Positions 2,638 through 62,084 of a stretch of DNA of 64,000 bases are shown here, piece after piece; the first letter of the stretch is position 1, and each line of letters starts with the position of its first letter. The stretch is from Cordylochernes scorpioides. Taxonomy: Eukaryota > Arthropoda > Arachnida > Pseudoscorpiones > Chernetidae. The stretch lies in assembly GCA_030710605.1 (NCBI GenBank), contig CP092882.1, positions 20,718,446 to 20,782,445 of the forward strand, in the 5' to 3' direction. Below the pieces are notes generated by a model, which saw nothing but the letters and a program-made list of their open reading frames with translations, did not search any database and was not told the DNA's origin. A program made the translations under genes and the position numbers.

Positions 2638-5600
2638 CTAGGTAGAAGGAGCCGGGTCAGAGGGGTGTCCGCAGTGGGTGAGCAGGGGTGCCATCTTGTC
2701 GGCAGGCGGACTGTTACAGTCCAGAGTCATCTCAGCCTCCAGATGGGGAGGGGAGAGGTACGAGTCCACCAGGGTGGAGGAGGAGTCTGTACCACCGGGG
2801 GAAGGTAGCTGGGGAGAGGACCACGTCCCTTTGCTGTGGTCCAAAGAGCAGTTTGGGGGTTGAACCACCTCAAACATCTGAAGACTGGGAAGATGCTTTT
2901 GTTCAGGGAGGTTGGAAGATTCCTCCTTAAGGATGGAGAAGGAGCTGACATCCTCCATGTAATCATAGGGATCAGTGTCGCTGTTGGAGGAGAGACTTCT
3001 CTCCTCGTTGATCTTGGCAATGCTGGGTGGATCTCCTCCTTTCTGGGAGCAGCTGAGGATGGGGGAGAGGGAGCCTTCTGGGATTGGTTCAATGTCTGTG
3101 TCGCTGTTGGTGGCTGCTGGGCTCTTGGGAGAACTGACCGGCTCCTTCAAGGCCAGAGCTAACCTGAAGGAGAATTCCTTGGGCCCGTCCAAGTATCCCT
3201 CCTTAATCAAACTTGGCGGGCTCCTCACCGTCGAGTTCCCTTCTGTACCTTCCATGCTCACTTCGCTCAACTTGCCTGTTTCTGAAGTGTCTGGGTTTTT
3301 TGAGATAGCAGAGTCCACAATCTCAGATTCCTTCACCAGGTCGGGGGGACTTCTCAAGTCCTCCTCCTCACTCTTGGACACCTGGGACATCTGGGAGAAG
3401 AAGCAGAAATTGGCAGTTGTCATGCCATTTGAACTCCTGGCAGAACTCAGATGGTTCTTCTCTATCAGGCTCAAGTCTGAGGCACAGTAACTCAGGCCAA
3501 AGTCTCTGATGGCTTGCTGCTCCAGAACTGGAGGGCTGAGGAAGTCATCATTGGCCTTGTCATCCAAGGTCTCCAGGTTGAACTTCTCCAGTTTGGTTGA
3601 GCAAGTTTTGAAGTCATCTTTGGAGACAGAGGTGTCCAGAGAGGAATAATTGGTGCCCTGCTCCTCCAAGGTGGGTTTAGCCGAGGACTCCTCCTCATCC
3701 ATAGGATGGGGTTTTGCAGGTTGGAAGGATATATCCAGGCCTCCAGGTGTCTCTTCACTGTTAGAGCAGGCCGGCCTTGGTGGCAGGGCAGCCAACATAC
3801 TCTGGCCGTCAAACTTGTTCCAAGCTTCCGAGGCCAGTTCAACACTGTTGTGATCCTTGTGTAATACTTTGTGAAGCTCTTCCACAAGCTTCAAATGACT
3901 AGGTTCAAGGTTGGTGACCTGCTGTTGACTAGTGTTGGTGGCCTCTTCAAAGGAGCTGATGTCAGAGTATTCCTTGGGCTCCAGGGAAAGCCTTGGAATA
4001 GGATCTTCTTGCTCAGCAGGGAATGGTTTGTTCTCGATGGAATCAGCTGATTGCATGCCATAGGAGGATGGTGGAATTCCTGGTGGGTGGATGCTTCGGA
4101 AGAACCCCCCACTGCTCTTGTCTTCCTCTGGCACATTTGAGGTAGTGTCTGCAGTCTCTACATTGGGGGAACAACTTCCTTTGGAAAAGTCTCCCTGAGA
4201 AATGGTTTCGATGCTCAGATCTCCCCTCTCAGGTCTGGGGAGAGAGGATAGGGTGGATTCCTGGGAGATAATAGGCGAGCATCTGATCCCATCCTGATGG
4301 GGCCTGTCAACATCTTCCTGGGTGTCTGGGAGAGACAGGGTGGAGTCCTGTGAGGGACTCTGGGCTCTGTGCCAGGCAGCAGGACTGCAGGGGCCAGCAG
4401 AGTTGTAATGGAAGGGGGTGGACCCCTGCCTGCTGGACAGCGGCAGTCCTCTGGTGGGACTCTGCCACACTTCCCTCTCCTCACATCTCCAGGTCTCCTC
4501 AGGGCTGTCAGGAGCTTCGCAGGGGGGCGGCATCAAGAGAGATTCCTGGGTGGAAGTGAGGCTGGAGGAATTGGAGTGGCAGCCAAAGACTCTCCTGATG
4601 TTGGACCAGATTCCATCAGTCTTACACTCAGCTTGAGGGGACCTAGGCTTGTAACCAGGAGATTCCTCAACCCCATCTGACCTCACAGGAGCGGACGATG
4701 ACAAAGTGGATTCTGAGATTATGGAGCCAGACAGGACTCTTGAGGGGCAGTTTTCACTTGCCTCCAAGACTGATGAAACACTTTCCTGGTTGGGTGAGGA
4801 AGGTTTCTGAGAGGCATCTTCAGATTCTTCTATAGAGGAGCATGAAAAATTGGAGTTCTGAGACATCTGTGGCTCTGTATAATCCCCAGAACATCGGCAA
4901 CTCTCTGAACCTCTGGTGGGAGATTTAGGGGACTTGGGCCCACTTTGGGTCTTGAAATCTTCAACAGAAGTTGATGAGAGAGTGTAACTCTGCTCTGGGC
5001 TCATCGGGTAGGATGGCAGATTATCAACTCGGTTCTGGCTCTCTTCCGAGTGGGGGGAAATAACATCCTGGTTAGAAAATGATAAGTGGGAGTTGGAATC
5101 GGGTGGCTGAACCACTTGGGTCCATGTGGGGCTTTCCTCCTTCTTCTGAAGAACAGGAGTGGTCTCCTGCAGATGAGCAGTGTTACTGGGATACAAGGCC
5201 TGGGGATCTTCCACTGGTGGCCATGTTCCAGACTGAGTAGTGGATGTGCTCTGGGTGACCTCTTCCTGATTGGGGAAGGTGACTGGGGCTTCACAGATGA
5301 TGGTATGGCAGCTGTCCTCAGGATCCATCTCACCACAGATGGTGGTGGATACGGAGGAGGAGCAGCTCTGAGGACTCCGGAGAAACCCAGCTACTTTGGT
5401 CTGCCAGGCTCCTTCTTCCTTATTCAAACCAAGAGGATCAGACTCTTGGTCTGGGATTGGAGACCTTTGGCTGTATTCTTGTGCAAAGTTGGCTTCTGTA
5501 GAGTCTTCTTCTATAGGAATTGGAATCTGCTTGGAGCATCCAGGACTTGATGGCATTTCGACCAAAGGGGACATGTCCTCTTTCAGGCTGTGAACTGATA

Positions 5601-8600: not shown

Positions 8601-9080
8601 GGTCTTCTTCTTCCTCCTTGAGGAAAAGATCATCCTCCCCTCCTGCCACCACCGGAGAGTGTCTGTCATTGATGGGAGAGAGCTTTAACCTCTTGGGTTT
8701 GGGTTCTTCACTCTCCGAGTTGGAATGGAGGTCCTCCTCATTTAGGATCACTAGGTCTGGGGATTCCTTTGTTGGACAGGGTGAGGAAAGATTCACCTCT
8801 AGTTCTGGTACCTCGTAGGAATCCTCAGCCCCGCGGATACGTTTGGAGCATGGGGAAGCAACTGGAGAGGCTGCTGACACGTAGTCTGTCAGATCCACCT
8901 CTGCCAGCACCATGTTGTCTCCCCCAGAGGAGTCTGGAGACTCGTCGCTGCTGGGGACAAAGGTGCTGCGGCCCTCGCTAGGACTCTGGGAGAGACAGAT
9001 GGAAGGCTGAGAGTCCAAGCTGGGTAGAGGCTGGGAGGGTTTTAGGCCGAGGTTCTGGAGGAAACCCCTCTTTCGACCAT
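2638..9080 (-). CDS. Exon 13: giant S/P-rich tail with 10-residue repeats
   Basis: A single 6443-nt last exon (acceptor GTGGGCAG, phase 1) of 2146 codons ending in TAG at 2638. It opens with acidic and S/P-rich sequence, SPDLVILNEED (SUMO-interacting candidate, 1205-1214), and basic segments KPKRLKLSP and SPRKAKKSPTKRK (nuclear-localisation candidates). An array of units like SLQESIQNSP then spans about 670 residues. The last 1000 residues are low-complexity and rich in SP, SQ and TQ sites, with no fold recognised. Many SP sites suggest phosphorylation by proline-directed kinases (inference). The upstream part of this frame (to 9315) is intron read-through. Candidate AATAAA signals lie weakly at about 2102-2107 (minus). 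Confidence 0.82.
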
Positions 9081-12000
9081 CTGCCCACACACAACACAAT
9101 TGAAGGAAGGTCAACAACCATGGGCTGCACATGATGTCAATGGAGGGAGAGAACAGATGCCTCATTTTGAAAGAATGGTAAACTGATCTCTGGATAGGCC
9201 ATGTCACACAAGATAGCCTATTGAAGGACACATTAAAGGAGGTGACCCACGTTTGTGGACAACTGAAGAGACAAACTTGGAGGAACCTAAGTGTAGGACA
9301 AACTTTTTTGCTCAAATATTTTGTGAAGACGAGTTTTTTTCAGTACACGTCTTGCACATGTACCGTTAAAATGGATAAACTTGAATATCGTGCAGTTATT
9401 AATTTTTTTTGTTTTGGAGAATTAACCCCTAAAAAATCCATCCAAAGTTGACAAAAGTTTACAGGAACCTTGCTCCTTCAATTTCAATTGTTAAAAAGTG
9501 GGCAGTTGATGACTCACGTAAAGACGGTCAAAAATTGCAGCCACACCAGAAAAAGGTGCATAATATCATGTTGGACGATAGGCAAGTAAAGAAGTGTGAG
9601 AGATTGCTGAGACTATGGGAAAATCACAAAATGGATGTGAAACATCTTGCATGGAGAATTAAGAGATGCAAAAGCTCTGCGCAAGGTGGGTGCTGCATTT
9701 ACTGAATGCAGATCAAAAGCAAATAAATGTACTAATGACATTCACAGCCATGTTTGGATCAATTAAAGGGGGATCCGACAGTTTTTATGCAGCGATTTGT
9801 CACCATGGATGAGACATGGGTCTACTATTACATGCCAGAAACCAAACAGCAGTCGAAGGATTGGGTGAAGCCGATGGTTCAGCGCCAATTCGATCGCATT
9901 TACCGGAAAGGTCATGGCCAGTATGTTTTGGTATGCCAAAAAGGAATACTGTTAATTGATTGCCATTAAAAAGGCAGAACTATTACAGGTGAATATTACT
10001 CTAACTGTCAAAATTCACGAGAAGAGGCCTGGCTTGAGGAATAAAAAATCATCTTCACCAGGACAACTCACTCGTGTGTTGGCAATGGGGAATTTGGCAG
10101 TTGAATTATAGAGCATTCTGATAGATAGCATGATCAAGAGATGAAATTCCTTTGGTTCTCCTATTTTTTCTTCTTTCCAACACCGCCGGGTGGCAGAAAG
10201 GAACTTACCGGGAGAGGTAGGATCCAAGGAAGCCAGGCCCCCCCGGCCAGGGGTCTGAGTGACTGCCCTGAGAGGGGCCATCCAGGAGGTGTTGATCCAA
10301 GAGGTGTCATCCTTCTCCTTGGGAGCATTGGTCCAGAGATATCTCCTGCGTGGCTTGTACAGGGAAGTCATGGGGTAGCAAGTTCTCTTACGGCACCTCA
10401 CCAAGTGCCTGGCTGCACCCATCAGGAGGTTTGCCGGTTTTCCTTTACAGCAGCCACAACATCAGATGTATCCTAAGCTAAATCTATATTGGGTTATAAG
10501 GCGGTAACACATTGGGAGCCTGGTTCCCTTAATTGCCATGATCATGGCACCATGATCCAGGCAAACTTTGGTGAAAGTCTGACTTTGCCTGTAATTTGAG
10601 GCCGTTCCTAACATGGAAGCAGAGGCCTTTGCTGCTGACTCCACATAGTACAGATGCAGCTCCTCTGTATCCCTGGAGAGGGACCCTTGCTGTGGTTTAT
10701 CAACCGGTTCAGTTGAATTCAGAACTTTTGAAAAGGTAGCTTTCTTCTTTCTAACAATGCTGCTGTTGGTTCGTGATTGCTTATTAATCTGAGTTATTCT
10801 GATTGTTTCGCATCTGGCCTTTATATCTGAAGGTTGTTCCCCTATCCGCCACCAGAGGACGCGCCCTGAAGCAGTCAGCTCTGCCAAGGAAAATTGGGAT
10901 ACTGATTGAATTAAATATGTGACAGAGGGCATGAGTTCATGTTGCCATGTCAGAGTGTTCCCTGAATGAAGTAAGAGGTGATTGGCAGGGACAACAAGTT
11001 TAACAAAAAGAAGTGCAAGGTAATGCCGCAACTTTAAAAAAAAAAAATAATAATAAATACAGTTAAACCTGTCTAAAGCGCCGCCTCTTGGGACTCACCA
11101 AAATAGAGTGTTATAGAGAGGGGGTGCTATAGACAGGTCACTTATTTTTAATGTAAAATGTTTACTTAATGTTAATATATTTTTAATGTTAAATGTTTAA
11201 AATCGAGAGCTATAGAGAGGAAGGCGCTATTTAGAGGGGGCGTTATAAACAGGTTTAACTGTAATTATACAAATGTTCAAAAATAAGCCACAGATTTATG
11301 TATATTGTAGATAAAACGAAACCTACTGGGCTACAATTTAATACATTGAGAGTTACCTCTTTGTTATGAAAATCTCTGGCTGCTGCTGATGAAGAATAGA
11401 ATAGTTACTTCAGCCACCGGGTCTTTGGTGCTTGTCAAAGTTTCAATTACAACTCTATAGATTTGTTACCTACCCAGACGGTCCCCTCGGCTGGAGTAGA
11501 AGCCACAGAGACAGAACATGGGATCTCCAATGAAGGACTGGTCTGTGCAGGCTCTCCTCTTGGCCTGGATGTGGTAGATGTTCTTGTGCCTCTGGAGAGA
11601 GACCTTGCAGAATGTGTTGAAGGAACATTGGTCGCATGATATCTTATGTTCCCTGAACACAACTGGAGGTTAAGATGCTGGGGGTCTTACTTCTACTGGG
11701 AGCAACTTTCTCTCCAACCTGACTACCTCTTTATAAACATCTGTTTTTACAAATATTCTATATACAGTTACGAGCGTCATTCTTCATCAGTCATCTCTGT
11801 CACCGTTTGCTTTTTTTTTTTAATAGCGCCCTCCTATTGGTCGGCTACGATCACGCCACCTTTGCCCCCCCCCCCCCCCCCCCCCACTCGCTTTTTCGTT
11901 TTTGTAACCATTGTGTTGGAGCGGGTCGCTCCTTAAATAAATTCATATATTAGTTAATAACTAAATGGAATCCTCTCTTTCCTTTTCCCAGTAAGAGACA

Positions 12001-15000
12001 CCTACGGAAGCCAACAGTACATAGACAGATAAAGCACATAGGCTATAGTTATTAACTAACATGCATTTATATAAGGCGCCAATTTATAATTGTAACAAAT
12101 AGTATTTGAATCAAAACATTCAATCGGGTAAAACACGGGCGTTGCCCGGGTCATTCGGCTAGTTTTATAATATATATGACAAGTATTATTTATATTTCCT
12201 TTTTTTTTTAATAAAACCATTTTCTACTGCCCCCTTACTGCAATGATAAAAATAAAAGAAGAGCCTGGCTAACCAGTGGTGAACCCTTCTATTAAATTAG
12301 CAAAACAGCTGAGAGGGTTCACCATTGATGAGCCAGGCCCTCCCATTATTTTTATTAATTCAGTAGGGGGGGCAAAAAAGAGAATTATTTTATTTAAAAA
12401 ATAAAAGAAATGTAGGCATCATAAATAGTTCAAAAACCTTTATATTTCAACACTTTTCCAAATCCCAATAAGCCTCCTTACTTTAACCGACTCTAATTCC
12501 ACAAGGGTAGTCTAAACCGTTGGTTTTTGACCGCCACGACCCAGGGTTGAATCCTGTAGATTGGGTACTTTTTTTCTAAATAAAAAAAAAAAATAATGCT
12601 CCAATGGCCCTCGATTCTTGCAAAAGTCCAACCCCACCAGTGAGTGCAAGTAACCAAAAGGAGCTCTGGCACATTTGTAAGCGCAAAAGTCGAACTGCTT
12701 TTCCCATGTGTAGACATGTGGTACACTTACGGTAAAAGCAGTCGCCAACTTCTACCAAACATGATTATCATGGACTGTACCATGTGTACTAGGGGGATAA
12801 TAAAAAAATAATAATAATTCCAAACAAACTTTAATTCAACTGAAAATGCTGATCCTTCTGGGATGTTGAATTAAAGAAGTTAAAACTTATTATCTTTACT
12901 TTCATTTCTCCCCAAATTTAACCCACTTATTTTGTTGGGATCCAAAACCTGTCTTGCTATATAGAAGATTATTTATTCTTTATGAATTATTATTTAGGAA
13001 CTCCTTTTTTACATCTTTGTATTTTATCAACATTTTATATTGTACAGTAAATATCTCCAACAGATCCATCATTTTGTGGTGAAACTTCCAAATTAACACT
13101 TTGCTTTTCACCAAACTTTTAGGAAACAAGGAATAGTAACTAATGAGGCACAATTTGGATTATAGAATTATAAACACAAGGTAATAAGACCAAATCCAGA
13201 TAAATAAATAGTTTGGTAACATAATGATGGTAACAATGCTGTTACCGAAATGTAAAACATCATTTATTTATTTGGTCTAATTACCTTGTGATGGAATAGT
13301 AACTCTTCCTTGTTCCAACAAAATGATGTCCCAAAGTAGGTGATGAGGTTTTCATTCAATTAATATAAATGGATGAGATAATGACACAATAACAAAGAGT
13401 TGTTTTAGTGTTTTGACAAGGAGTTTCAACCAAACTCACCCGAAATGTTTGGCAGGGACAAAAGGCTTCTTGCACTCTGTACAGAGGTGGTAGTCCCCCT
13501 CGGGTCCACCCAGGATGAGTTTGCGGGCAGGGGATGGCACGTAGCGGCTATAGTCATCGATGTAGCCAGTGTAGGTGTACTTCTGAGGGGACTCCGGCTT
13601 GGCAAACTCCTCCGCCGCTCCCTCCTTGGTGACCAGGGGAAGAGACTTGATGGGGTACACCCCTGGACCCACACCTTGGTGTCCGTCTAGGATGTGAGCA
13701 GGCTTTCACAAATATTCTAAATAACTAATATGTGATATTGTAACATTTATTTATCACTAAATTATTTATTTTTTAATAATCTATTGCTCTGTATGATGAT
13801 TCAGAACCATCTAGTCACCTCTTTGCTTTTGAAAATTGATTTGATCATCGTTTTAGGCAAAAGCTATCATGATTGGACTGACCCACCTCAACTCTACATC
13901 TATGGTGAAACTTCCAAATTAACACTTTGCTTTCCACCAACCTTTTAGGGAAACAAGGAAAACAGCCTTCCAGACTCAGCATGGAACTTCTTAGTCAACT
14001 GGTTCAGCTCAACACTCAAATCAGGATGCGAGTAAAAGTGATTTTCACTAGTCCCTACTAGTAAGCTGGATTTCCCGGGTAATTGGAGTTCCATTCTGGA
14101 GTTTGTTTTAGATCTTTATCTGAAGACTTTCTAAAATAAATGTTCTTATCAATAGGCTTTATTTGCTCTTAATTACTTTACAATGCCAAGCTATGTATAG
14201 CAATTGATAATATTTTGAACAAAGAGTTCTGAATGAGAATTTTCCCCTTGCTGACTTCCTAGATTCCCCTCTCACAATTTAGGTATCTTTTAAATAGAGT
14301 AAAACCTCGGTATAGTGAACCCCAGAATTTGGTTCACTAAAGCCAAGGCTATGCAAACTTTTAAAGATTATTATGTTGTATAAATTTAAAAAAAAATAAA
14401 AAAAGGGGGGGGGGGGGGGGGGGGGGGGGCAGGTTGAAAAGAACACCACTTAATAATGGTCACTTTTTTAACTTATAGTAAAAGCCAGTGCCAACTTCTA
14501 CCCACCATGAGTTTATCCCCTTGTGCACACAAAGTTTACACAAATTCCATGAGTCCATGCTCCTTGAGCTGAAATCATGTGTATATTAGGGAAAATTAAA
14601 AAAAAAAAAACACCAAACCAAAAATTTTAAAAATGATAATTCAATCAGGTTAGACAATTTGTTTCAACCTAGTCGTGCCAAGTAGAAGCTCAATAAGAGA
14701 GATGCAAAGATGTGTTATTTTCTGATATATAATCCCAGAGTGGCCACGTACGTACCCATCCTGGCCTTCCAGGCAGTGTGGTCATTCTTCTTGTGGTTCT
14801 TCAGCTCGGGGAGGTTGATGAAGGTGAGGCAGCAGGTGGAGCACTTCTTGACCGACTTGGACTGGTGCTTGTAGATGTGGTAGTAGTAGCTGTTGAGCTG
14901 GCCCACCCCCGTGGCCGCACTGATCTTCACTTCAAACACCTTCAGGCAGTAGGGGCAGAGCACCTTGGAGGTCTGGCTGTGAACCTGTACCACCACAGAT

Positions 15001-30000: not shown

Positions 30001-33000
30001 GTCCCAGCTGGATGAACCAAGGAATAGGCTCGTTCAAGAACTGGGTAGTCCTTATCAGATACTGCTCTGCAACACCAGCGCAATGTGAGACATCACCTTG
30101 GAGGAGTCTTAGAGTGAAGTCCAAGTAGGATACACAGAGTTTCAATTTTTCAAATGCGCAACATTCAAGTAAAAAATTTCATATTTTTATAAATTAAGAA
30201 ATAACATCTTGAAAAACTTTAGGTTTAGCAAAGCAACAAATTAAGAAGACTAAGTGCATTTCAGTTTGAATCAGCAAGTGAAAACAATTAAGTGTGGATT
30301 TCAATTTTTAGATTTATCAAGGCAACCCAATGGAAAAAAACTTGTAAACAATTCATTTTTCAGATTCACCAAGTCAACACAATTAAGTGTGCATTTCAAT
30401 TTTTGGATTCACCAAGGCATCACAAAGAAAAAAAACATATATACAATTCAGTTTTTATAGATTAACCAAAGCAACACAAATAAGTGGAATTCAATTTTTA
30501 GACAGAAGGAATTTCTGTTTTATATCTGCAATTGATTTTTCATATTAAGATTTTAATCTCTTCTCTATTTAATCCTGCCCCCAATAAAGCATTCCAAGGA
30601 ATTCCATCCTTCTGTACTTACGAAGCTGCCGAGCCCGGAGATCCCACTGGGCCTGAGGTAGGGCTGAGCTAGGGCAGGAGAAGATCTGGATGAGCCGGCT
30701 GCAGCTGGGCTGGCTCCAATTCTTCTGCTGCTCAAACACCATTCCTTTGTCAACCTATGTGACATCTATGTATACAAAGTGGAACCATTCTATATACAGT
30801 TACGAGCGTCATGCGTCATCTCTGTCACCGTTTGCTTTTTCTTTGGAATGGCGCTCTCCTATTGGTTGGCTACGATGGCGCCGCCACTACGCGAGACACT
30901 TTGTTTTTGACTTTGCCCCCCCCACTCGTTTTTTGGGTTTTGTAACTATTGTGTTGGAGAGGGTCGCTCCTTAAATAAATGCATATATTAGTTAATAACT
31001 AAATGGAATCCTCTCTTTCTCAATTTATAATTGTAACAAATAGTATTTGAATCAAAACATTCAATCGGGTAAAACACGGGCGTTGCCCGGGTCATTCGGC
31101 TAGTTAAGTATAAAACAAAGAAGCCTTTTTCACTCAAAAGAAATGTGCTACAATTAACAGAATGGAAGAAAGAGAAAATATCAATGGTATTTACAGATAT
31201 GATTTTAATTATATCTAAAAAAAAAAAAGAGAGAGGGTTTTTTTTTTTTCACTTCTAATTCTAAGAATAATATTTTAGGATTCTTAGAAAACTATCTTCT
31301 TATCTGTTATCTTGTTTACACACTTGATTACAGTAACTATTTAAAACATGCTGTGTTATATTTTTTCATTCTAAACTGAGACGAAAAAATTAATTTCTCA
31401 TTCAGTCTTTTGTCTGATGATGGTAACAATGCTATTACCGAAACATCACACACTATTTGGATTTGGTCTTATTACCTTGTATTTATAATTTATAATCCAA
31501 ATTAAGCCTTATCAATGAGTACATTGCTTTCTTTTTCATATTGTATCAAAGTATTTATTATTTTTATTAACAGAGTGGTCATTTTTATGTTTATATTTTG
31601 CTACTCTGTAAATTTCCCTCGTGGCTTATCTTTTGTTTACCATTCATAGTTTGTCCTTGCCTGAAATAAATTGTTGTCAATTTTCCACGTGGCATTTTGG
31701 TGGAGATGCTGGGTAAGTTAGAAAAGACAAACTGAAGACCGCCGAGAAGAATTTGAAGCCATGGGTGCTGTGATCTACATTTTCGGAGTCTGACTCCAGG
31801 ATTCCTCCGCCATGCTAAAGCCAAGACTTCCCTCGAAGATGACGATGTCCCTATAGATGATACAATGACAAAGCTGCTCTTCACGCCGCAAGAAAAAGGA
31901 CGCAAAGGCACTAGGGACAAAGTTCCAAGACTTCGATGGAATCCTTGGCAGAAGCACGTCAGATCCATGTCAGTATCTACAATAATTGCAAGCTGTGGGT
32001 CACAGCTCCCATAGGCAAGAAGCTATGTAATAAAGTATTTATTATTTTTATTAACAGAGTAGTCATTTTTATGTTTATATTTTGCTACTCTGTAAATTTC
32101 CCTCGTGGCTTATCTTATGTTTACCATTCATAGTTTGTCCTTGCCTGAAATAAATTGTTGTCTCATCCTGAAGTTTTTGTCTTCCCTAATTTTCCACGTG
32201 GCAATATAATAAAGCAAACTTCCTTACTGCGATGAAAATATGAAGAAAACCTCAGTGGTGAACCCTCTTAATGATTTTGCAAGTTTAATCCACAATTTCA
32301 CTGTTTAGAGCTTTACTATTGTATTGGCTTATATATCCGATACTGGAGGGAGAATCTTGGTTATGGTTGATCTCAGGGGTCGGCAAACTTTTGGGTTGGA
32401 AGAATCAAAAATAACAAATTTCAAATCTTCAAAGTTTTTAAAGAGCCACAACATTTTTTTCTTGCCAACAATAAATAGTACTCGCATAAATAATATTTGC
32501 ATATTCTATATACAGTTACGAGCGTCATTCTTCATCTCTGTCACAGTTTGCTTTTTTTTGGAATGGCGCCCTCCTATTGGTTCGCTACGATGGCACCGCC
32601 AATGCGCGAGACACTTCTGTCACCGTTTGCTTTTGGTTCAGTGGTAGAATGCTCGCCTGCCACGCGGGGCGCCCCGGGTTCGATTCCCGGCCGATGCATT
32701 TTTTTTTTACAATTTTTAAAACTCATTTATATATTATAGTGGCGGGCGCCCTGGGTTCGATTCCCAGCCGATGCATTTTTTTTTTTTTTTACAATTTTTA
32801 AAACTCATTTATATATTATACAAGAATGACATCCACGGCGCCAATTTATAATTGTAACGAATAGTATTTTAATAAAAGCATTTAATCGGGTAAACCCCAG
32901 GCGTTGCCCGGGTCATTCGGCTAGTGGAACTATATAAAGAGCCACAGCTTCACATCCAAAGAGCCGCAGTTTGCCGACCCCTGCCATAGGTTAATATACA

Positions 33001-36000: not shown

Positions 36001-39000
36001 GGTGATCTGCCTGCCTGGCTTATCTAGAGCTTCTTTAGGGGGGTCGGTGGAAGGCTGGTTAAACCGTTTGGTTTTCGACCACTACGAACCGGGTTCGATT
36101 CCCGCATTGGACACTTTTTTCTGTTTAAAAAAAAAAAAAAAAAATGCTCCAATGGCCCCCGATTCTTGCAAAAGTTCAACCCCACCAGCGAGTGCAAATA
36201 ACCAAACGGGGCTCTGGCACATTTGTAAGTGCAAAGTCGAACGGCTTTTCATATGTGCAGACATGTGGTGCGCTTACAGTAAAAGCAGTCTCTAACTACC
36301 CACCATGATTATCATGGCCTGTACCACGTGTAGTAGGGATAAGCAAAAAAAAAAAAAAAGAGCTTCTTTAGATTCAGCCACTACATCATTCATGATTGTA
36401 CCTTAAACATAGTGACATGTACAACATACAGGCCAATCCTCAACTTGATTTTATATGGCTCTTGTAACCATTTTAACTACATATATTTTACATTAAAAAT
36501 ATCTATTCTATTATAGAAATTCTTCACAATGTTTTTAATAACACAGTTTTTCTTTTCTATGTCCCATATATATTAAAATTACAAGTCCAGCCACAAGTTT
36601 CTGGGGTTGTTTGTGCCTGTAGTAGGCTCTAGATGTTTGCCTAGTTTGGCAACGATGGATGAATCCCCACTTATCATGATGACATTGGGGCAAAGAAGGA
36701 TGGAGGCCATTTCTATACATTTTTAATGTATTGTTTGTAATGTTGTATTTTTAATAAGAATGATGTTCTTTCAGGATCCTGGTTATTATAGGAGGTTATA
36801 TTTTACAAAGGTCATTCACGAGAGAGAAGGTGACTGCACCCCTTGCAAATCCCAGTGTGGCAGGAAACTTCATGATGGGTGTACATCACATTCCAAGAAT
36901 CTGAAGCACATACTGTCTGACTAAGCTTCAAGCACCCCTTAATATAGAAGTAATTGTTGTGGTTGGTAGTGCTTACTTTTAATGGCAGCACCTAATTTTG
37001 CCATTCACTTCGCATCATCATCATTAGAGTTTTTGTGGCTTTTTATAAGTTTAGCCCAGGCACTGATGTCTGGGGCTGTTGGCATGGGACAGATATTGGC
37101 AGCTAACCACCACATCCTCTACATGCTAGGATTCACCTCTCCCACTGGGTATAGGGGGCAGCTGCCATCTTACACCATCAAGTTTGCTGTCCACATTTGA
37201 AAGTAAAAAAATCACAAAGCTTCTGTTATAACTGGGATCAATCAATGGTGTAAGCTCACCTCTAGGCCATGGATCTCTTTTAGCTGCCAGGCCGTGAGGA
37301 CTTTGACAGGCTTGGCAACAGCTACCGGGGGGGGTGGGGGGGAGAGTTTTCTTATCCTCGATGATTTGGCAGTCTTCATCGTCGTCTACTATCACAATGG
37401 GGGTTGGTTGTTCCTTATTGCACGTCTCTGCGGTTTTATCACAGTAGATGATCTTGGTATTGGCCAGCTGGAGCGCAGCAATCCGTTCATTCACGGACTC
37501 CAGACACTCCTCGGCCTCACGCAGGGCCTGCAGCTGCACAGGAGACAGCATGTCGTCGTGGCACACCATGTTCAAGGTGCCGGATTGCCGTGTCAGCGCA
37601 CCATTCCTCATCAGCTTGCAGAAGGCCGCCAGATCCTCTCCGCTCCCATCCCGCAGTCTACCATTGGCTGGGGAGGTGTCCTGCAACCCACCAACTCTTT
37701 GACTGTATCTAAGCCACAAAATACTATACTGTTGGGACAATTCATAAAATATTATTTGAGGCAACTTATGGACCTGGTCTGAAACTCCATCTATCTGTCA
37801 TATTATGGGAATAAGCTGTCAACATTGATAAAATTTGCTGATGATGTGCGAAGACTGGGAAACCAGTACAAGCCATCATTTTATCTTTGCAGCCTGGTCA
37901 AAAGTTTTTTTTTTTTTTTCTGTTTTCAAGGCAAAATGCTATGTGGCCATCCTGTAGAAACATTGCTACCATTCAGCATCACTGTTAGATACTTGTCAAC
38001 AGTAAAACATCAAACATAAAGTTAATTTAGACAATAAAAAACATGGCGAAGGAAGACGAGTTTCTTTTATTGGTGCATTAGAGCTTTTTTTTTTTTTTAA
38101 CTCGTCTTCCTTCGCCATGTTTTTTATCGTCTAAATTCAATCCAGGAAGAATTCTTTATATATATTTATAAAGTTAATTTATTATGGGGCCCTCTATTTT
38201 CTTTGGTTTTCATTTTATATTCTGAATTATACATAGTCAAAACTAACCAATTTAAATGCTAAAATAAAATGTTTACACTTTAATGTGGTTTTTTAAAGTA
38301 AATTATCAAAAACAATTTCTGCAACCTTACGGTAAGGATAGAAAGCTTAGACTGCGAGGGTTCACCATTAATAAGCCATGCCCTGTCACCTAGCTTTCTA
38401 TCATCTCAGTAAGGTTTGCAGGTTTTCTGAGAGAACTTTTACCAAAAGGTTACCAAGTAATACACACATATGGTGACCTAATAAGTACAGTAGAACTACC
38501 TCTCTCTAAAGGAGGACAACACTAAGCATCCTTTAAAGAGATGTGTGTTCTTTTCGGAGAGCTTCTAATTAGTCAAGCTGGTAATTTAGGAAAATAAAAC
38601 TGTCCTTGTAGAGAGGTGACCTCTAGCGAGAGTGTCCTTTTATGGAAGTTCTACTGTATGTGCAACATTTCTGTGACAGCATTGCTACTAGTGTAGAGTG
38701 TAGGTATGGTGCAACACACTATTGCAATCCAAATCTAGAGGTATGAATACTCATTAGATTTAGTCCTTGCTACCTTATGTGAATTCTCTCTATCATTCAA
38801 ATATGTACATGTGGTAACATAAATGGGGGCATCCCTCCTTATTCTGATACAGGAGAACCTCCACAAGAGGACACCTCTCTACAAAGGACAGTTTTTTTCA
38901 TTTGCAAAAATACCATTTTTATTATTCAAAAACTCTCCGGTAAGAGGACATCTCTCCCTAAAGGACACTCTGGAATTAGATGTTGCCCTTTACAGGGAGG

Positions 39001-40015
39001 TTCTACTAACAGAAAAACTGACACAGAAAAATAAGTCAAATAGAATGCAGGTTGAGTGACATATTCAGCAGGCACCCACCAGTACAGACACACTATCAGA
39101 AAAATGCTACAGTCAAACAGTTAAAAACTGACTTTTTGAATCACACCAGTACTTTTTTTGTTTAAATCTCATTCTGTGCATTTTTTTTTTTGTTTGCTTT
39201 CTCAACAATGACATTCAGGCATCTTTCCAAGAAACATCTACACCTAACTCTTTCCTTTTGTCAAGTTTAATTGGTACACAATTTATAACATATTAGAAAC
39301 AACATACAAGATAGCACTTATACAACACCTCACTTATATAAGGCATTCATTTCCCATTTGTGCCAGATTCCTGCTTCACAAATGAATAAGTTGAGCTTTC
39401 AAGGGAGAATCTCCTTACCCATACATCTTTCAGTTATCTTGCCATACTTCATAACAGATAGAAGAGATCTTTTGTCTTTTTCACTTATGACGCAATAAAA
39501 TAATTTGACAGAAATGGAAAAATGATGTCTTTATAGTTATTATATAACATTATCACAGCTACCAAGTGTAGACTCAATCTACAGAGCAAGTGGGTGTGAT
39601 CAAAACTTTGAAAGAAGAAAAAAAAACTCACCAAGCTCTCGCTCCTGCAAGGGCTGGAAGAGGCAGGTGAACAATGGTTTTCATTCTCTGTCTTAAGAGA
39701 AGGCTTCTTTTCTGGGGAGCTGGAGCTGTCTCGGATGGTGATGCACTGGGGTGAGCCCTTCTTCTCTGGAGATTCTGCTAGGGGGCAGAGTTGGAGGGAT
39801 GGTAGAGCATGGGACTTGAGCTTCTTGCTCACGTAGTCCTCGCTGGTGAAGTGGTCCGAACACACGTAGAGCTGGTGGGTCCGAGTCGTCTTCTCAATCC
39901 CCAGCAGCTGCATCCACTTCTTCTTGACGACATACCTCTTGGGGAGCCTGTGCCAGAGCAAATTCTCATTTTTAACTGATGTGTTTTCGCATAAGGAAGC
40001 CGAGCAAGTCTTCAT
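2638..40015 (-). CDS. 13-exon gene: THAP + Merlin-derived + POGZ-type zinc-finger + giant repeat protein
   Basis: Exons (genomic): 39632-40015, 37260-37680, 30622-30744, 29227-30066, 26304-26477, 22943-23055, 18447-18617, 17349-17525, 14756-14984, 13440-13686, 11474-11652, 10209-10442, 2638-9080. They sum to 9735 nt (3244 codons plus stop) and every phase matches (0,1,1,1,1,0,0,0,1,2,1,1). Seen: THAP zinc module (residues 1-85), SUMO-interacting motifs near 223, 606 and 1207, a Merlin/ISXO2 transposase-like region (about 320-580), C2H2 fingers (683-1060) in POGZ/ZNF280 order, basic stretches, and a 10-residue repeat array (about 1500-2175) within an S/P-rich tail. Known: THAP and POGZ-type proteins are nuclear chromatin/DNA binders. 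Inferred: a nuclear, SUMO-linked, probably phosphorylated DNA-binding protein. The joining is my manual reading. Two genes sharing this interval remain possible, though unbroken phase and a zinc finger split exactly across the exon 6/7 junction argue for one. Confidence 0.78.
5848..7870 (-). repeat. Coding minisatellite, 30-bp unit
   Basis: Inside exon 13. The unit encodes about ten residues, consensus S-L-Q-E-S-I-Q-N-S-P, with a 12-residue variant (S-P-S-L-K-E-S-V-P-D) toward the C-terminal half and S-P-S-Q-Q-D-S-I-Q-N toward the other end. Units between about 6600 and 7200 are nearly identical, while the flanks are diverged. All units keep frame. The opposite strand is also open across the array, which is a by-product of the repeat. 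Confidence 0.93.
9371..10060 (+). pseudogene. mariner transposase relic in intron 12
   Basis: Pieces in several frames follow mariner order: MDKLEYRAVI and SISIVKKWA (N-terminal helix-turn-helix region), then FVTMDETWVYYYMPETKQQS (second catalytic Asp region) and GILLIDCH followed by GRTITGEYY. Stops and frameshifts separate them. Non-functional. Confidence 0.82.
10209..10442 (-). CDS. Exon 12: end of zinc-finger block
   Basis: Acceptor GCTGTAAAG and donor GTAAGT, phase 1 in and out. KPANLLMGAARHLVRCRKRTC supplies the His and Cys that could complete the CLCGFYSS finger of exon 11. The rest is a 50-residue linker with basic KPRRR and KEKDD segments. Translating from the internal ATG alone would lose the link to exon 11. 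Confidence 0.75.
10540..10890 (+). repeat. Unclassified interspersed repeat, copy 1
   Basis: About 350 bp shared at high identity with 22474-22822, from CATGGCACCATGATCCAGGC to CAGCTCTGCCAAGG. No terminal repeats or frame identify the family. Orientation is arbitrary. Confidence 0.7.
11060..11261. mobile_element. MITE, pogo-like, CAGTTAAACC ends, copy 2
   Basis: Same ends as the copy at 714-873, about 200 bp long, with TA flanks at 11058-11059 and 11262-11263. Confidence 0.75.
11474..11652 (-). CDS. Exon 11: C2H2 fingers 8 and 9
   Basis: Acceptor GTGTTCAG and donor GTAGGT, phase 2 in and 1 out. It encodes ISCDQCSFNTFCKVSLQRH ... H, a full C2H2 finger, then FCLCGFYSSRGDRLG. The latter starts a C-x-C type finger that finishes in exon 12. 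Confidence 0.83.
11757..12162 (+). mobile_element. Non-autonomous Helitron, family 1
   Basis: Starts TCTATATACAGTTACGAGCG and ends in a GGGCGTTGCCC hairpin followed by GGGTCATTCGGCTAG. A 5'-TC, a short 3' hairpin and a CTAG end are the Helitron hallmarks. It contains a C-run of about 25 bases. No protein. Confidence 0.75.
12257..12346. repeat. Hairpin repeat (GGTGAACCCT family)
   Basis: Inverted arms: GCCTGGCTAACCAGTGGTGAA ... TTCACCATTGATGAGCCAGGC. Diverged relatives containing GGTTCACCATT sit at about 32260, 34005 and 38365, suggesting a small foldback family. Confidence 0.55.
12495..12800 (+). mobile_element. tRNA-derived SINE, diverged copy
   Basis: Matches the SINE at 36039-36358 through its whole body (ATGGCCC-CGATTCTTGCAAAA, CAACCCCACCAG, AAAAGCAGTCGCC), with a degraded tRNA-like head. 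Confidence 0.72.
13178..13290. repeat. Penelope-like family C inverted repeat
   Basis: Arms AAGGTAATAAGACCAAATCC and complement. The centre has ATGATGGTAACAATGCTGTTAC then CGAAATG, a decayed hammerhead-like core. Confidence 0.6.
13440..13686 (-). CDS. Exon 10: linker and start of finger 7
   Basis: Acceptor TCCTAG and donor GTGAGT, phase 1 in and 2 out. A 60-residue linker (YPIKSLPLV ... YIDDYSRYVPSP) precedes HLCTECKKPF ... HFG. The same C-x2-C followed by HF occurs in the second half of the POGZ zinc-finger block. Confidence 0.78.
14404..14429. repeat. Poly-G run
   Basis: An uninterrupted run of about 26 G after an A-rich stretch, in an intron. Possibly prone to length error. Confidence 0.8.
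14756..14984 (-). CDS. Exon 9: C2H2 fingers 5 and 6
   Basis: Acceptor GGTACAG and donor GTACGT, phase 0 in and 1 out. VHSQTSKVLCPYCLKVFEV matches the next POGZ/ZNF280 segment (LLCPYCLKVFK-type). It continues to YYYHIYKHQ and KCSTCCLTF ... HKKNDH. An insertion of about 12 residues (ISAATGVGQLNS) lies inside finger 5, compared with the usual spacing. Confidence 0.85.
15540..15832 (-). mobile_element. Penelope-like family A terminal-repeat copy
   Basis: Contains the family A sequence (GGAATAAATATCAACTATTC, TTGATTAATCAAGAAAAGC) and, unlike neighbouring copies, a complete hammerhead motif on minus. It is directly followed by another copy at 15830. Confidence 0.6.
15684..15725 (-). ncRNA. Hammerhead ribozyme (type I, Penelope-like)
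   Basis: Read on minus: stem I ACCACG, core CTGATGA, stem II GGGC-CAACA-GCCC, core GAAA, minimal stem III (A-U, C-G, two-base loop AC), cleavage triplet GTC, then stem I CGTGGT. All core bases are present, and stems I (6 bp) and II (4 bp) are perfect. Very short stem III is known for hammerheads of Penelope-like elements, where self-cleavage helps process the RNA. Predicted cleavage is after the C at 15690. Confidence 0.8.
15830..16143. repeat. Near-perfect palindrome of Penelope family A
   Basis: Arms of about 103 bp (15830-15932, 16040-16143) flank a spacer holding the 3' part of the hammerhead (GAAACGCGTCCGTGG on minus). The CTGATGA half is replaced by the second arm. Confidence 0.7.
16200..17300. 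other. Intron 8, no gene seen
   Basis: AT-rich intron. No conserved exon or clear element recognised. Short ORFs on both strands have no coding character. Confidence 0.45.
17349..17525 (-). CDS. Exon 8: C2H2 fingers 3 and 4
   Basis: 59 codons, phase 0 to 0, acceptor GGCCCAG and donor GTGTGT. Finger 3 is CRIC ... HLSSNH. Then comes RPYEMPYYCQAC ... RSSFFADIHEHF. The 'P-x-EMPY-CQ-C-x-RSS' linker is the most diagnostic piece of POGZ and ZNF280 proteins, and is the main reason for that family call. Confidence 0.87.
18447..18617 (-). CDS. Exon 7: C2H2 fingers 1 and 2
   Basis: 57 codons, phase 0 to 0. Finger 1: C-P-I-C ... H-IRR-H. Finger 2: CPHCYRDFDTP ... H, whose last histidine lies in exon 8. 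The CYR-F-TP signature, 10-15 residues after a first finger, is characteristic of the POGZ/ZNF280 zinc-finger block (from memory of the family). Confidence 0.85.
18843..19713. repeat. 27-bp AT-rich satellite
   Basis: About 32 tandem copies of GAATTAGAACAATGCATTA plus TTAATTAT, with A/T swaps at two positions and occasional two-base insertions (GTGCATT). It lies in intron 6. Open frames (YELEQCIIN repeats) are a by-product of a unit length divisible by three. Confidence 0.93.
20166..22010 (-). pseudogene. Non-LTR retrotransposon relic (RT thumb + RNase H)
   Basis: In coding order: YLGVTLDPALTFKKHID (after the RT palm), [retroposon insertion], ATILRSTYLALLRPILEYA, FDITIYTDGSQ and KLELSAIDT plus IIIYSDSRAAIY (RNase H Asp/Glu/Asp), WLPAHIGITENELAD, then a C-terminal C-x2-C region. 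Frameshifts near 20940 and 20360 break it. RT plus RNase H order fits the I/Jockey-group elements. The clade is not certain. Confidence 0.8.
21507..21832 (-). mobile_element. Retroposon with (TTG)n tail, nested in the RT relic
   Basis: Flanked by perfect 14-bp duplications AGCTTTGTTTATCA (21493-21506 and 21833-21846). The minus-strand unit runs from GCTCAAAACTGGGCAACTCT to a (TTG)n tail. A second copy is at 23106-23440. It reads as the 3' end of a longer non-LTR element. Confidence 0.8.
22115..22250. mobile_element. MITE, pogo-like, CAGTAGAACCTC ends
   Basis: Ends CAGTAGAACCTCC and GGTTCTACTG. Internal AAAATTACCAGTTTTACTAT is shared with copies at 23908, 34261, 38488, 38850 and 44406. Confidence 0.7.
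22474..22822 (+). repeat. Unclassified interspersed repeat, copy 2
   Basis: Same unit as 10540-10890. The 90 bp before it (ATCCCCTTGTGTAAAG...) recurs in part near 14515 and 27555. Confidence 0.65.
22943..23055 (-). CDS. Exon 6: link into the first zinc finger, GC donor
   Basis: A 113-nt exon found because exons 5 and 7 disagree in phase (1 against 0). Its length (2 mod 3) repairs this exactly. Acceptor GTGTCCAG. The donor is AAG followed by GCAAGT, a GC-AG intron. The last residues, QGLFTFK, run straight into exon 7 CPICEKP, completing the N-terminal strand of a C2H2 finger. A retroposon with target duplications is inserted 40 bp upstream of the acceptor. Confidence 0.72.
23106..23440 (-). 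mobile_element. Retroposon with (TTG)n tail, copy 2
   Basis: Flanked by 11-bp duplications ATCAAATAGTA (23095-23105, 23441-23451). The internal sequence is almost identical to 21507-21832. Its tail end lies 40 bp from the exon 6 acceptor. Confidence 0.75.
23526..23790. repeat. Long inverted repeat, Penelope-like family D
   Basis: Arms of about 125 bp, each holding GGTTTGGCGTTCAGCCAACC followed by GAAATATTGGC, a stem-loop plus GAAA like a decayed hammerhead stem II. CTTGATA stands where CTGATGA would be. Confidence 0.65.
23908..24074. mobile_element. MITE, pogo-like, CAGTAGAACCTC ends
   Basis: CAGTAGAACCTCCCTTTAGC to GTAGTTCTACTG, with TA before the left end. Confidence 0.7.
24231..24360 (+). 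mobile_element. Truncated Helitron family 1
   Basis: Begins TCTATATACAGTTACGAGCG like the full copies. It stops at GCCACCTTTG, where a SINE body fragment follows directly. Confidence 0.65.
24361..24494 (+). mobile_element. SINE 3' fragment fused to Helitron
   Basis: TAAGTGTAAAGTCAAACTGC to CTAGGGATAAGCA(A)n matches the 3' half of the SINE at 36039-36358, with an A-tail. Confidence 0.7.
24713..24826. repeat. Penelope-like family C inverted repeat
   Basis: Arms ATAATAAGACCAAATCCAAA and complement, with a centre of GTAACAGCATTGTTACCGAAA. The catalytic CTGATGA is missing. Confidence 0.65.
25125..25345 (-). mobile_element. Penelope-like family B fragment
   Basis: On minus: GAAAGTTGCCTGTCGAAGGA, CGTCAAAGTCTGAAAGCTTG and an AATAAAAGAAACTCGTC end, matching 1915-1995. 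The region 25225-25345 matches the arms at 888-1000. Confidence 0.65.
25592..25944. repeat. Penelope-like family C inverted copy pair
   Basis: The left arm (minus) has a CTGATGA, GGTAACAACACTGTTGCC, GAAACGTCAC core; the right arm (plus) has a decayed one. About 200 bp of non-coding DNA lies between. Confidence 0.65.
26304..26477 (-). CDS. Exon 5: SUMO-interacting motif and basic stretch
   Basis: Acceptor GTGTGCAG, donor GTAAGT, phase 1 in and out. It encodes SDDIVVLDDS (residues 603-612), a near-ideal SUMO-interacting core (IVVL flanked by acids). A QKRK segment and a SKKLK segment follow and may act as nuclear-localisation signals. There is no other recognisable fold. Confidence 0.78.
26549..26720. 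repeat. Penelope-like family C inverted repeat
   Basis: Arms as in 24713-24826. The right side reads GGAGATGGTAACAACACTGT then TACCAAAATGTCAC, a decayed core. Confidence 0.65.
27203..27451. mobile_element. MITE, CAGTGGTACCTCGACATAC ends
   Basis: TIRs CAGTGGTACCTCGACATAC and its complement, flanked by TA (27201-27202, 27452-27453). It has TC-rich internal repeats ('CTCGTATCTCGAA'). This is a pogo/mariner-type family widespread in invertebrates. Confidence 0.85.
28143..28460 (-). mobile_element. tRNA-derived SINE
   Basis: Minus-strand full copy: the tRNA-like head at 28385-28460 with B box GGTTCGATTCC, body as in 36039-36358, and a long A-tail (T-run at 28138-28160). No clear target duplication. 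Confidence 0.8.
28488..28630 (+). repeat. Diverged SINE body fragment
   Basis: AGCTCCAATGGCCTTTGATT to CATGTGTAGACATTTGGTGG matches the SINE body. Head and tail are missing. Confidence 0.55.
28912..29008. mobile_element. Short MITE, CAGTAGAAC ends
   Basis: CAGTAGAACACTAG to GACCCCACTG, flanked by TA on both sides. It is an internally deleted member of the CAGTAGAACCTC family. Confidence 0.5.
29227..30066 (-). CDS. Exon 4: Merlin/ISXO2-like transposase domain, catalytic residues lost
   Basis: A 280-residue exon with acceptor GTTGCAG and donor GTGAGG. It has the Merlin/IS1595 (ISXO2-like) layout: an N-terminal zinc ribbon (CRWC at 339-342, then W361-V-C and C368), SRLRFF, a long helix ending in AYYW, LGGRGHLVEV, a GRFHIFGALDR strand, LVPGSTLIS and VAHTRTIT. 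The positions where active members carry Asp, Asp and Glu read Gly447, Ala501 and Thr530, so hydrolytic transposase activity is not expected. Inferred: a domesticated DNA-binding or dimerisation module. High GC compared with its flanks and an uninterrupted frame indicate selection on the protein. Confidence 0.8.
30622..30744 (-). CDS. Exon 3: start of transposase-like region
   Basis: A 41-residue exon with phase 1 in and out, and donor GTAAGT. The acceptor (ACAAAG) has a poor pyrimidine tract, so the exact 5' edge is the least secure in the gene. The frame is fixed by the join RARQL to QQYLIRTTQF of the next exon. A Helitron ends its 5' terminus 45 bp upstream of the acceptor. Confidence 0.6.
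30789..31103 (+). mobile_element. Non-autonomous Helitron, family 1
   Basis: TC start (TCTATATACAGTTACGAGCG), 3' hairpin GGGCGTTGCCC and CGGCTAG end. It sits 45 bp upstream of the exon 3 acceptor of the minus-strand gene. Confidence 0.78.
31400..31482 (+). repeat. Penelope-like family C arm with hammerhead-like core
   Basis: CTGATGA (31414-31420), stem GGTAACAATGCTATTACC (one mismatch), GAAAC, ATCACAC. The GTC triplet is changed to ATC. Confidence 0.55.
31542..32203 (+). mobile_element. TRIM-like deleted Ty3/gypsy-type LTR element
   Basis: Terminal repeats 31542-31694 and 32026-32203 both start TGTA and end CCACGTGGCA. They differ by a 28-bp indel and a few substitutions. The 4-bp duplication is ATAT. 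Right after the left repeat comes TGGTGGAGATGCTGGG, a primer-binding-site-like sequence of the tRNA 3'-end type used by gypsy elements. Only about 330 bp lies between, so no protein is encoded. Confidence 0.7.
32505..32924 (+). mobile_element. Helitron family 1 carrying a tRNA-Gly fragment
   Basis: TC start at 32505, hairpin GGCGTTGCC and CGGCTAG end at 32924. The middle holds tRNA-Gly sequence and a partial tandem duplication (32699-32740 against 32777-32820, both ACAATTTTTAAAACTCATTT). Confidence 0.75.
32635..32698 (+). pseudogene. tRNA-Gly(GCC), 5'-truncated
   Basis: GGTTCAGTGGTAGAATGCTC, anticodon loop CTGCCAC with GCC, then GGTTCGATTCCCGGCCGATG CA. The 5' acceptor strand (about 8 nt) is replaced by Helitron sequence, and T-runs follow. 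The 3' half recurs at 32742-32776. Confidence 0.8.
33140..33503. repeat. Penelope-like family C inverted copy, interrupted
   Basis: The left arm (minus) has CTGATGA-like GATGATGG, stem and GAAACGTCAC. The right arm has CTGATGATGGTAACAATGCT, then is broken by the retroposon at 33504. The other side resumes at 33918. Confidence 0.65.
33504..33917 (-). mobile_element. Non-LTR 3'-end copy with (TTG)n tail
   Basis: Perfect 14-bp duplications CTATTAAATTATTT (33490-33503, 33918-33931). On minus it encodes a C-terminal zinc-knuckle-like segment (CYFCNVGIQDNLVHYLFHCP), stop at 33626, then UTR and a (TTG)n tail. It is a 5'-truncated insertion. Confidence 0.82.
34261..34426. mobile_element. MITE, pogo-like, CAGTA ... 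TACTG ends
   Basis: Diverged member of the CAGTAGAACCTC family with the same internal AAAATTACCATTTTTACTAT. Confidence 0.55.
34895..35039 (-). mobile_element. 5S rRNA-derived retroposon with foldback ends
   Basis: On minus it contains the 5S rRNA core: GTCATACCACGTTGAAAACA, GTTCTCGTCCGATCACCGAA, GTTAAGCAATGTCGG and GGGTGACCACCTGGGAACAC. The normal 5' end is replaced by an inverted copy of the 3' end (arms 34897-34927 and 35002-35033, about 90% complementary). Perfect 13-bp duplications CAATTCTAAGTTA flank it (34882-34894, 35040-35052). It is not an ordinary 5S gene. SINE3-type 5S retroposons are the closest known class. Confidence 0.82.
35431..35624. repeat. Penelope-like family C inverted pair with hammerhead cores
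   Basis: Plus arm: CTGATGA (35548-35554), perfect stem GGTAACAAGGCTGTTACC, GAAAC, GTC. The minus arm carries a diverged copy. Confidence 0.65.
36039..36358 (+). mobile_element. tRNA-derived SINE, intact reference copy
   Basis: Perfect 13-bp duplications AGAGCTTCTTTAG (36026-36038, 36359-36371). The tRNA-like head (GGGGTCGGTGGAAGGCTGG, then B box GGTTCGATTCC), an A-run, a unique body of about 220 bp and an A-tail. The head retains Pol III A- and B-box spacing; the isotype is unclear. Confidence 0.88.
37260..37680 (-). CDS. Exon 2: linker with SUMO-interacting motif
   Basis: Acceptor TTGCAG and donor GTGAGC, with phase 0 in and 1 out. It encodes about 140 residues. A helical, charged stretch (LQALREAEECLESVNERI) could form the short coiled coil often found after THAP domains. 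It is followed by TPIVIVDDDED at residues 221-231, a hydrophobic core with an acidic tail typical of a SUMO-interacting motif, then QIIED. No domain assignment is possible beyond this. Confidence 0.75.
38030..38132. repeat. Inverted repeat, Penelope family B-like
   Basis: 32-bp arms (CATGGCGAAGGAAGACGAGT and complement) around AGTTTCTTTTATTGGTGC, a phrase shared with the family B ends. Confidence 0.55.
38325..38420. repeat. Hairpin repeat (GGTTCACCATT family)
   Basis: CAACCTTACGGTAAGGATAG and TATCATCTCAGTAAGGTTTG form diverged inverted arms around GGGTTCACCATTAATAAGCC. Confidence 0.45.
38488..38656. mobile_element. MITE, pogo-like, CAGTAGAAC ends
   Basis: CAGTAGAACTACCTC to GGAAGTTCTACTG with TA on both sides. 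Confidence 0.7.
38850..39008. mobile_element. MITE, CAGGAGAACCTCC ... GGAGGTTCTA
   Basis: Same family, with the internal ACCATTTTTATTATTC, CTCTCCGGTAAGAGGACA segments. The right end has lost the terminal bases. Confidence 0.65.
39632..40015 (-). CDS. Exon 1: THAP domain
   Basis: The ATG at 40015 opens a C2CH THAP zinc module: Cys4 and Cys9, then HRLPK, KWMQLLG and CSDHF (the C-x2-H pair), followed by an ALPSLQL segment in the place of the AVPTIF box. THAP domains bind DNA sequence-specifically and occur in transposases and in host regulators. Starting at the very N-terminus is the normal position for this domain and supports the start codon. The exon is 128 codons and ends in phase 0 at a GTGAGT donor. 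Residues after about 85 are S/P/E-rich linker. Confidence 0.88.
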
Positions 40016-52107: not shown

Positions 52108-52160
52108 TTTTATTTTTACGATTTTAGATTTTAAGTTTTAACCACGCTTTATGCTGCCAC

Positions 52161-61218: not shown

Positions 61219-61261
61219 TTCCTCAATTCCTCATGTCACGGATGCGCGCGCATCATCATTA

Positions 61262-62010: not shown

Positions 62011-62084
62011 TGAAACTCTTCCGGTGTGCAACTTAAGAATAAACGTATCATTAAACGGGAGATAAGGATCTTTTATTTGGAAAC

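Follow-up and report, generated by a model that had tools for sequence, protein, structure and literature searches.

POGZ, a gene tied with high confidence to autism and intellectual disability, is described as having arisen by the capture of a pogo transposase. The ZNF280 family presumably has these fingers and no transposase, and THAP9 is P-element-like. In the accessible text of PMC7386202, POGZ is a chimera of fingers and a Passer-type pogo transposase, and the recruitment of the transposase is placed in lobe-finned vertebrates before the amniote-amphibian split; ZNF280E is an alias of POGZ in the available portion of PMC7301966. POGZ binds HP1 through its HPZ finger, and the HP1-binding finger part is needed for reporter repression, according to the accessible parts of PMC7673123 and PMC8775410. 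For Merlin transposases, PMC8101967 lists possibly domesticated genes together with a C. brenneri chimera that has a WD40 domain; in the part of that paper that was available, none of the Merlin chimeras carries THAP or POGZ-type fingers, and THAP is absent from the main text.

The window, which is the whole 64,000-nt stretch of Cordylochernes scorpioides DNA analysed here, probably contains one host gene that combines all three of these components, encoding a zinc-finger protein of the POGZ type with THAP at its N-terminus followed by a catalytically dead Merlin transposase. A model built from open reading frames, splice sites and intron phases has 12 exons on the minus strand (40015 to 2638; C20:20,721,083-20,758,460), which are predicted to join in one frame of 3203 aa that stays open up to the stop at its end; ten introns are GT-AG and one, after exon 5, is GC-AG, with consistent phases at all 11 joins. 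The first-pass annotation had described 13 exons in one frame with consistent phases, of which the single frame and the phases stand while the count becomes 12. It had also placed THAP, Merlin and POGZ-type fingers in that order, which Pfam, a genome-specific Merlin profile and an alignment to POGZ bear out. The predicted exons are as follows.

Exon 1, 39632..40015, minus strand: aa 1-128; start codon and THAP domain (aa 4-74; PF05485, 46.1 bits for this exon alone, cut-off 23.9); donor gtgagt after G, phase 0.
Exon 2, 37260..37680, minus strand: aa 129-268; coiled-coil-like stretch (by eye) and acidic PIVIVDDDED, which resembles a SUMO-interacting motif; open frame, codon score 67.5.
Exon 3, 29227..30066, minus strand: aa 269-548; degenerate Merlin/IS1595 transposase, with a zinc-ribbon-like N-terminal part and a DDE region that has G, A, T for D, D, E.
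Exon 4, 26304..26477, minus strand: aa 549-606; an acidic exon that has basic clusters and IVVLDD, similar to a SUMO-interacting motif; open frame, entered and left in phase 1 like its acidic counterpart in the C14 paralogue.
Exon 5, 22943..23055, minus strand: aa 607-644; DEMYYARK motif, aligned with the DDFYYGRD ahead of the POGZ fingers; GC-AG donor; the POGZ alignment begins here.
Exon 6, 18447..18617, minus strand: aa 645-701; C2H2 fingers 1-2; 35% over 57 aa to C14, E 1e-9; within the POGZ alignment.
Exon 7, 17349..17525, minus strand: aa 702-760; C2H2 fingers 3-4; 50% over 48 aa to C14, E 1.5e-14.
Exon 8, 14756..14984, minus strand: aa 761-836; C2H2 fingers 5-6; 39% over 69 aa to C14, E 2e-13.
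Exon 9, 13440..13686, minus strand: aa 837-918; after a spacer, the double finger of POGZ type begins (first half); the zf-POGZ match spans the join to exon 10.
Exon 10, 11474..11652, minus strand: aa 919-978; completes the double finger with its second half and opens an HPZ-like finger (HP1-binding in POGZ); PF25429 34.1 bits on joined exons.
Exon 11, 10209..10442, minus strand: aa 979-1056; remainder of the HPZ-like finger (AARHLVRC); donor score 7.1, acceptor score -0.6; frame consistent.
Exon 12, 2638..9080, minus strand: aa 1057 to the stop, about 2150 aa; rich in Ser, Pro, Glu, Leu and Gln, probably disordered; open frame of 2147 codons.

Several of the window splice sites were picked partly for phase fit, and the start of exon 5 (23055) was placed by analogy with C14, after which a phase problem was gone; the consistent phases of the window gene by themselves are therefore not strong proof. 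Within the predicted model, certainty is lowest for the splice sites of exons 2, 4 and 5. Splice-matrix acceptor scores are weak for exons 2 (-2.1) and 4 (-4.5); exon 5 has a low codon score (8.2) and is the second-ranked tblastn match of its C14 counterpart (47.6% over 21 aa, E 0.039). The codon score, which was trained on several of these exons, including part of exon 2, marked most exons but rose too on intron stretches that read like mobile elements. For exon 2, which is without a Pfam match, a second open frame near the 3′ end (PVAVAKPVKVLTAWQLKEIHGLE) that looked protein-like was provisionally set aside; it presupposes either that a C-rich run has the wrong length or that a short intron is present, and the original frame was kept because it needs neither and because its phase (1) fits the phase at which the Merlin exon is entered at both loci. 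The precise 3′ part of exon 2 is uncertain. Between exons 4 and 5, no additional exon was convincing by splice score. The tail encoded by exon 12 contains SPSLQESIQN repeats of about 10 residues (26 LQESIQ-like units counted), and a 30-bp coding repeat lies in region 5965-7492, with 45.9 copies at 5965-7418. Outside the exons, a 1069-aa open frame on the minus strand (48928-52137) reads by eye like a copia-type gag-pol retrotransposon, and satellite-like repeats at 61231-62085 and 18802-19740 are open in one or more frames and do not have the appearance of genes.

Exon 3 gives no Pfam family at E<=10, whereas hmmsearch with a profile of this genome's own Merlin transposons (five pieces, search space set to 1000) finds it at E 5.8e-8, compared with 0.34 for the best of 1000 shuffles. 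The HMM search that the first-pass annotation had suggested is split in its outcome: THAP and zf-POGZ exceed their cut-offs and the genome's Merlin profile detects the transposase, but the Pfam IS1595 model is silent on the window. By hhalign, the Merlin assignment reaches 94.3% for the window alone and 96.0-97.8% for the window together with its C14 counterpart (reversed controls, 0.2-0.3%). The C14 Merlin domain is weak with the same profile (E 0.0016); in Pfam its sole family is PF12762, below the cut-off (E 0.0071, 16.8 bits, cut-off 27). In a tree with eight genomic Merlins, the window and C14 domains form one group with a support of 100/100, the C14 branch being long; the C14 sequence in these profile, Pfam and tree analyses includes about 11 residues later assigned to an intron. 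The two domains are 35% identical over 231 columns, and a genome-wide search with exon 3 returns exon 3 itself, two C14 places (four rows, 35-53% identity) and one weak transposon match. In the alignments, as we read them, the window domain has G, A and T where the catalytic D, D and E should stand, which justifies the first-pass label of a dead transposase as far as catalysis, read from sequence, is concerned; by eye, only the second D is retained in C14.

The genome contains 116 matches to PF12762, the IS1595 transposase family, at E<=1, several of them with D, D, E motifs in open frames, and this abundance is the argument for taking exon 3 as a dead Merlin element inside an intron of a POGZ-type gene and not translated with it. 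However, exon 3 has kept 280 codons open with no catalytic acid left, and the paralogue has the same degenerate domain at the same place. Moreover, the Merlin exons of the C14 tandem copies differ by 8 synonymous changes in 170 sites and 2 replacement changes in 532 (p 3e-4), while the adjoining intron is 93.5% identical between the copies, with gaps. An untranslated intronic element is thus highly improbable, and the Merlin domain is treated below as part of the protein. Other IS1595-like sequences form separate groups in the genome. C4:26569722-26719443 has nine matches in open frames of 213-353 aa, 4 of them over the family cut-off, with catalytic residues that are partly altered (D, N, E by eye at that locus), and C15:40762561-40814315 has two further matches; together these loci look like a second, separate host-derived Merlin gene family. 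A dense Merlin transposon array at C6:31.0-31.3 Mb includes several copies with open frames of 296-359 aa, and partial IS1595 matches of about 74 profile positions apiece are arrayed at C22:57.1-57.7 Mb.

The finger block was compared with a working version of the human POGZ sequence, on which the whole POGZ comparison rests; it has a histidine at 840. His840 is the HPZ residue named for POGZ in the accessible text of PMC7673123, and this agreement supports the version used. Window residues 618-980 align with POGZ residues 469-832 in one alignment (27% identity, E 1e-38) that starts with DEMYYARK opposite DDFYYGRD and ends inside the HPZ finger, before His833 and His840. With this POGZ version as query, phmmer scores are 133.7 bits for the window (best domain 132.8) and 84.8 bits for C14, against 30.0-68.1 bits (best domains 18.9-35.2) for eight C2H2 control loci. 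The zf-POGZ model (PF25429, cut-off 27) scores 34.1 bits on joined exons 9-11, where exons 10 and 11 were joined without three residues of the final model that lie beyond the match, 29.4 bits in the joined protein and 23.3 bits on exon 10 alone; because the joined exons score higher than exon 10 alone, the match spans the predicted exon 9-10 junction. A genome-wide search with the same model yields 6 matches, all below the cut-off (best E 0.13), and two bacterial control genomes also give weak matches. Of this model, the window and two places on C14 hit the second half alone, a pattern that an intron interrupting the domain at a shared position would produce; at three C5 places the match takes in more of the model.

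With the finger block as query against the whole genome, scoring 150 of the 1878 first-look candidates gave at least 79 matches, distributed as 3 rows in the window, 6 at C14 and 70 elsewhere; the 8 loci fetched from among these 70 look like other C2H2 proteins. The window/C14 family is the only POGZ-type gene found among the scored candidates, as judged from sequence, which does not prove the absence of others. The best 60 of 91 matches in a PDB sequence search with the finger block include no POGZ; they are other C2H2 proteins such as CTCF. On the window protein's HPZ-like finger, read by eye, a C stands in place of POGZ His840 and the cysteines are spaced C-x-C; the protein has no PxVxL motif. 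Because the last ligand and the cysteine spacing differ from POGZ, HP1 binding by this predicted finger is uncertain. Pfam searches of the last open frame (2233 aa) at E<=1 gave two sub-threshold matches and no transposase, and neither HTH_Tnp_Tc5 nor the DDE_1 pogo transposase was found there at E<=1 or in the first 1100 residues at E<=0.001.

The strongest comparison comes from a 140-kb region of C14, where a THAP domain, an acidic exon, a Merlin domain, another acidic exon, an FYYG exon and fingers follow one another in the same order and strand as in the window. The joined C14 model (935 aa in 11 exons over the part that was modelled, free of stops) can be aligned to the window protein along 579 residues that run from Merlin to finger 6, with 31.4% identity (E 3.9e-64). 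Intron phases agree at 10 of the 10 boundaries compared, with C14 sites read by eye and some chosen by analogy. In both genes the phases are 0 at the THAP end, 1 at Merlin entry, 1 at Merlin exit, 1 at the acidic exit and 0 at the FYYG exit; further, they are 0 after fingers 1-2, 0 after fingers 3-4 and 1 after fingers 5-6, and the exon-10 counterpart is entered at 2 and left at 1 (by eye). For the exit of C14 fingers 1-2, the boundary is the one read by eye; the scripted model cut the donor short by one base and set the following acceptor deeper in, and the substitution counts use the corrected exon ends. Chance would hardly give such agreement in order, strand and phase. The C14 gene differs from the window gene in that its Merlin part contains one more intron and is preceded by one more exon (78727-78859, local numbering), which is phase 0 in and 1 out and closes the path from THAP and exon 2 to Merlin. 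The locus is also rearranged: it has a near-identical duplicate of the THAP and exon-2 unit without a Merlin domain after it, and a second Merlin-finger unit after the first, without its own THAP. Separately, C14:90142280-90142949, between the paralogue's Merlin and finger exons, carries two fragments that are 97.5-98.2% identical to the last exon of the window gene, with a 445-base gap between them. They are a recent transfer; a reading as a processed copy proving transcription was rejected, as the junction has no splice signature and gives no evidence on splicing.

These shared features bear directly on whether two neighbouring genes, a THAP-Merlin gene (exons 1-4) and a POGZ-type finger gene (exons 5-12), have been wrongly joined. 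Such an error could arise in a model predicted from DNA alone, in which the acceptors of exons 2 and 4 are weak, the position of the short exon 5 was taken from C14 by analogy, introns roughly 3-7 kb long contain what reads by eye like mobile elements, and parts of the paralogous locus were duplicated separately. Yet an ancient paralogue shares the phases of three joins (Merlin-to-acidic, 1; acidic-to-FYYG, 1; FYYG-to-finger, 0), with collinear exons on one strand; exon 5 has a single in-frame Met, which falls within the DEMYY motif; and the end of exon 5 corresponds to the residues that precede finger 1 in POGZ. Two joined neighbours are accordingly quite unlikely. The paralogue adds much weight to the first-pass proposal of a single gene, since at C14 too the parts follow this order and the joins from Merlin to the fingers have these phases.

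The THAP domain requires its own argument. PF05485 scores 40.2 bits in the joined protein (first 1100 residues), and the window domain is 30.6% identical to that of C14 over 49 aa (E 0.026); in a tree of seven THAP domains, the two group in 2% of 200 bootstrap trees. This weak similarity, the weak acceptor of exon 2, its lack of convincing BLAST similarity to C14 exon 2, and the C14 THAP and exon-2 unit that occurs once without Merlin would all be compatible with a THAP gene that merely stands beside a Merlin-finger gene. In contrast, at both loci a THAP lies upstream on the same strand and ends in phase 0; additional exons come next, the Merlin exon is entered at phase 1, and at C14 the exon at 78727-78859 completes the path. 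Moreover, a Pfam search of the whole genome (2.6 Gb) gives only 9 THAP matches, two of them at C14, so that chance THAP neighbours at both loci are unlikely. A separate THAP gene is therefore an unlikely arrangement, and a THAP exon that belongs to the fusion gene is preferred; the membership of THAP in the ancestral unit rests on position and phase.

Across 11 exon segments, the C14 tandem copies differ by 17 synonymous changes in 648 sites and 4 replacement changes in 2166 (Fisher p 3e-8). The THAP and exon-2 counts come from a different, more similar duplicate; without these two segments, the counts are 16 in 427 and 4 in 1415. This is purifying selection on the C14 paralogue, measured there and not on the window gene. 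In the window, host and transposase domains share one predicted open frame, for which the support from selection comes from the C14 paralogue. By sequence comparison, the Merlin-finger unit is older than the split of the window and C14 genes. Overall, the window gene is probably a maintained, ancient host-transposase fusion gene, because its C14 paralogue has the same layout, matching phases and few replacement changes between its copies.

The predicted protein could act as a nuclear chromatin regulator. Its THAP domain would be a sequence-specific DNA binder, and a second would probably be the dead Merlin domain, in which the zinc-ribbon-like N-terminal part is preserved. By analogy with POGZ, the finger block may bridge to chromatin or heterochromatin, with HP1 bound by the HPZ-like finger, and the two SUMO-interacting-like motifs and the long disordered tail might help to assemble repressive complexes. 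The protein may at first have targeted Merlin elements themselves, many of which are still present in the genome. Even POGZ may not be purely repressive: it is reported in PMC9512081 to promote chromatin accessibility.

A broader possibility, for and against which the case seems evenly balanced, is that the POGZ/ZNF280 finger and HP1 module has captured transposases at least twice, namely pogo in vertebrates and Merlin, together with THAP, in the ancient two-locus family described here, the only POGZ-type gene found. Comparison within one genome favours separate recruitments around POGZ-type fingers over domain swapping, because the pogo part of POGZ is of vertebrate age (accessible text of PMC7386202) while an unrelated superfamily flanks the opposite side of the fingers here; domain swapping from an ancient THAP-Merlin-finger ancestor is, on this one-genome comparison, the less likely alternative. 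If the capture hypothesis is true, the finger module would be a recurrent acceptor that turns the DNA-binding parts of transposases into heterochromatin recruiters. A separate gene with the same finger/HP1 module and a different dead transposase on its other side would point to repeated recruitment of transposases by this module, would help to separate the contribution of the fingers from that of the transposase, and would be a natural comparison for which part targets DNA.

Among the papers listed in literature searches outside subscription journals, no title, abstract beginning or accessible passage describes THAP, Merlin and POGZ-type fingers in one protein. Host-transposase fusion is a known kind of gene; this combination, predicted from sequence, appears to be new as far as those searches go. 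The window protein resembles vertebrate POGZ in its finger order from the FYYG motif to the HPZ finger (by the human sequence used here), in a zf-POGZ match over the cut-off and in having a transposase domain in the same protein. It differs in that POGZ has a C-terminal HTH and pogo (DDE_1) transposase whose triad is well conserved (PMC7386202, accessible text), whereas no pogo part was found in the window gene and THAP and a dead Merlin domain are N-terminal instead. Merlin/IS1595 transposases are homologous to the window domain over the zinc-ribbon-like and DDE regions, and D, D, E copies are present in the same genome; in contrast, the window domain is without catalytic acids, is fused to other domains in a gene with introns, and has its closest relatives found at C14. 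THAP7 and THAP9 likewise have a THAP domain and transposase ancestry (in the available parts of PMC10680173 and PMC8230255, respectively), but THAP7 is P-element-like (PMC10680173), whereas the window THAP domain stands with a Merlin transposase.
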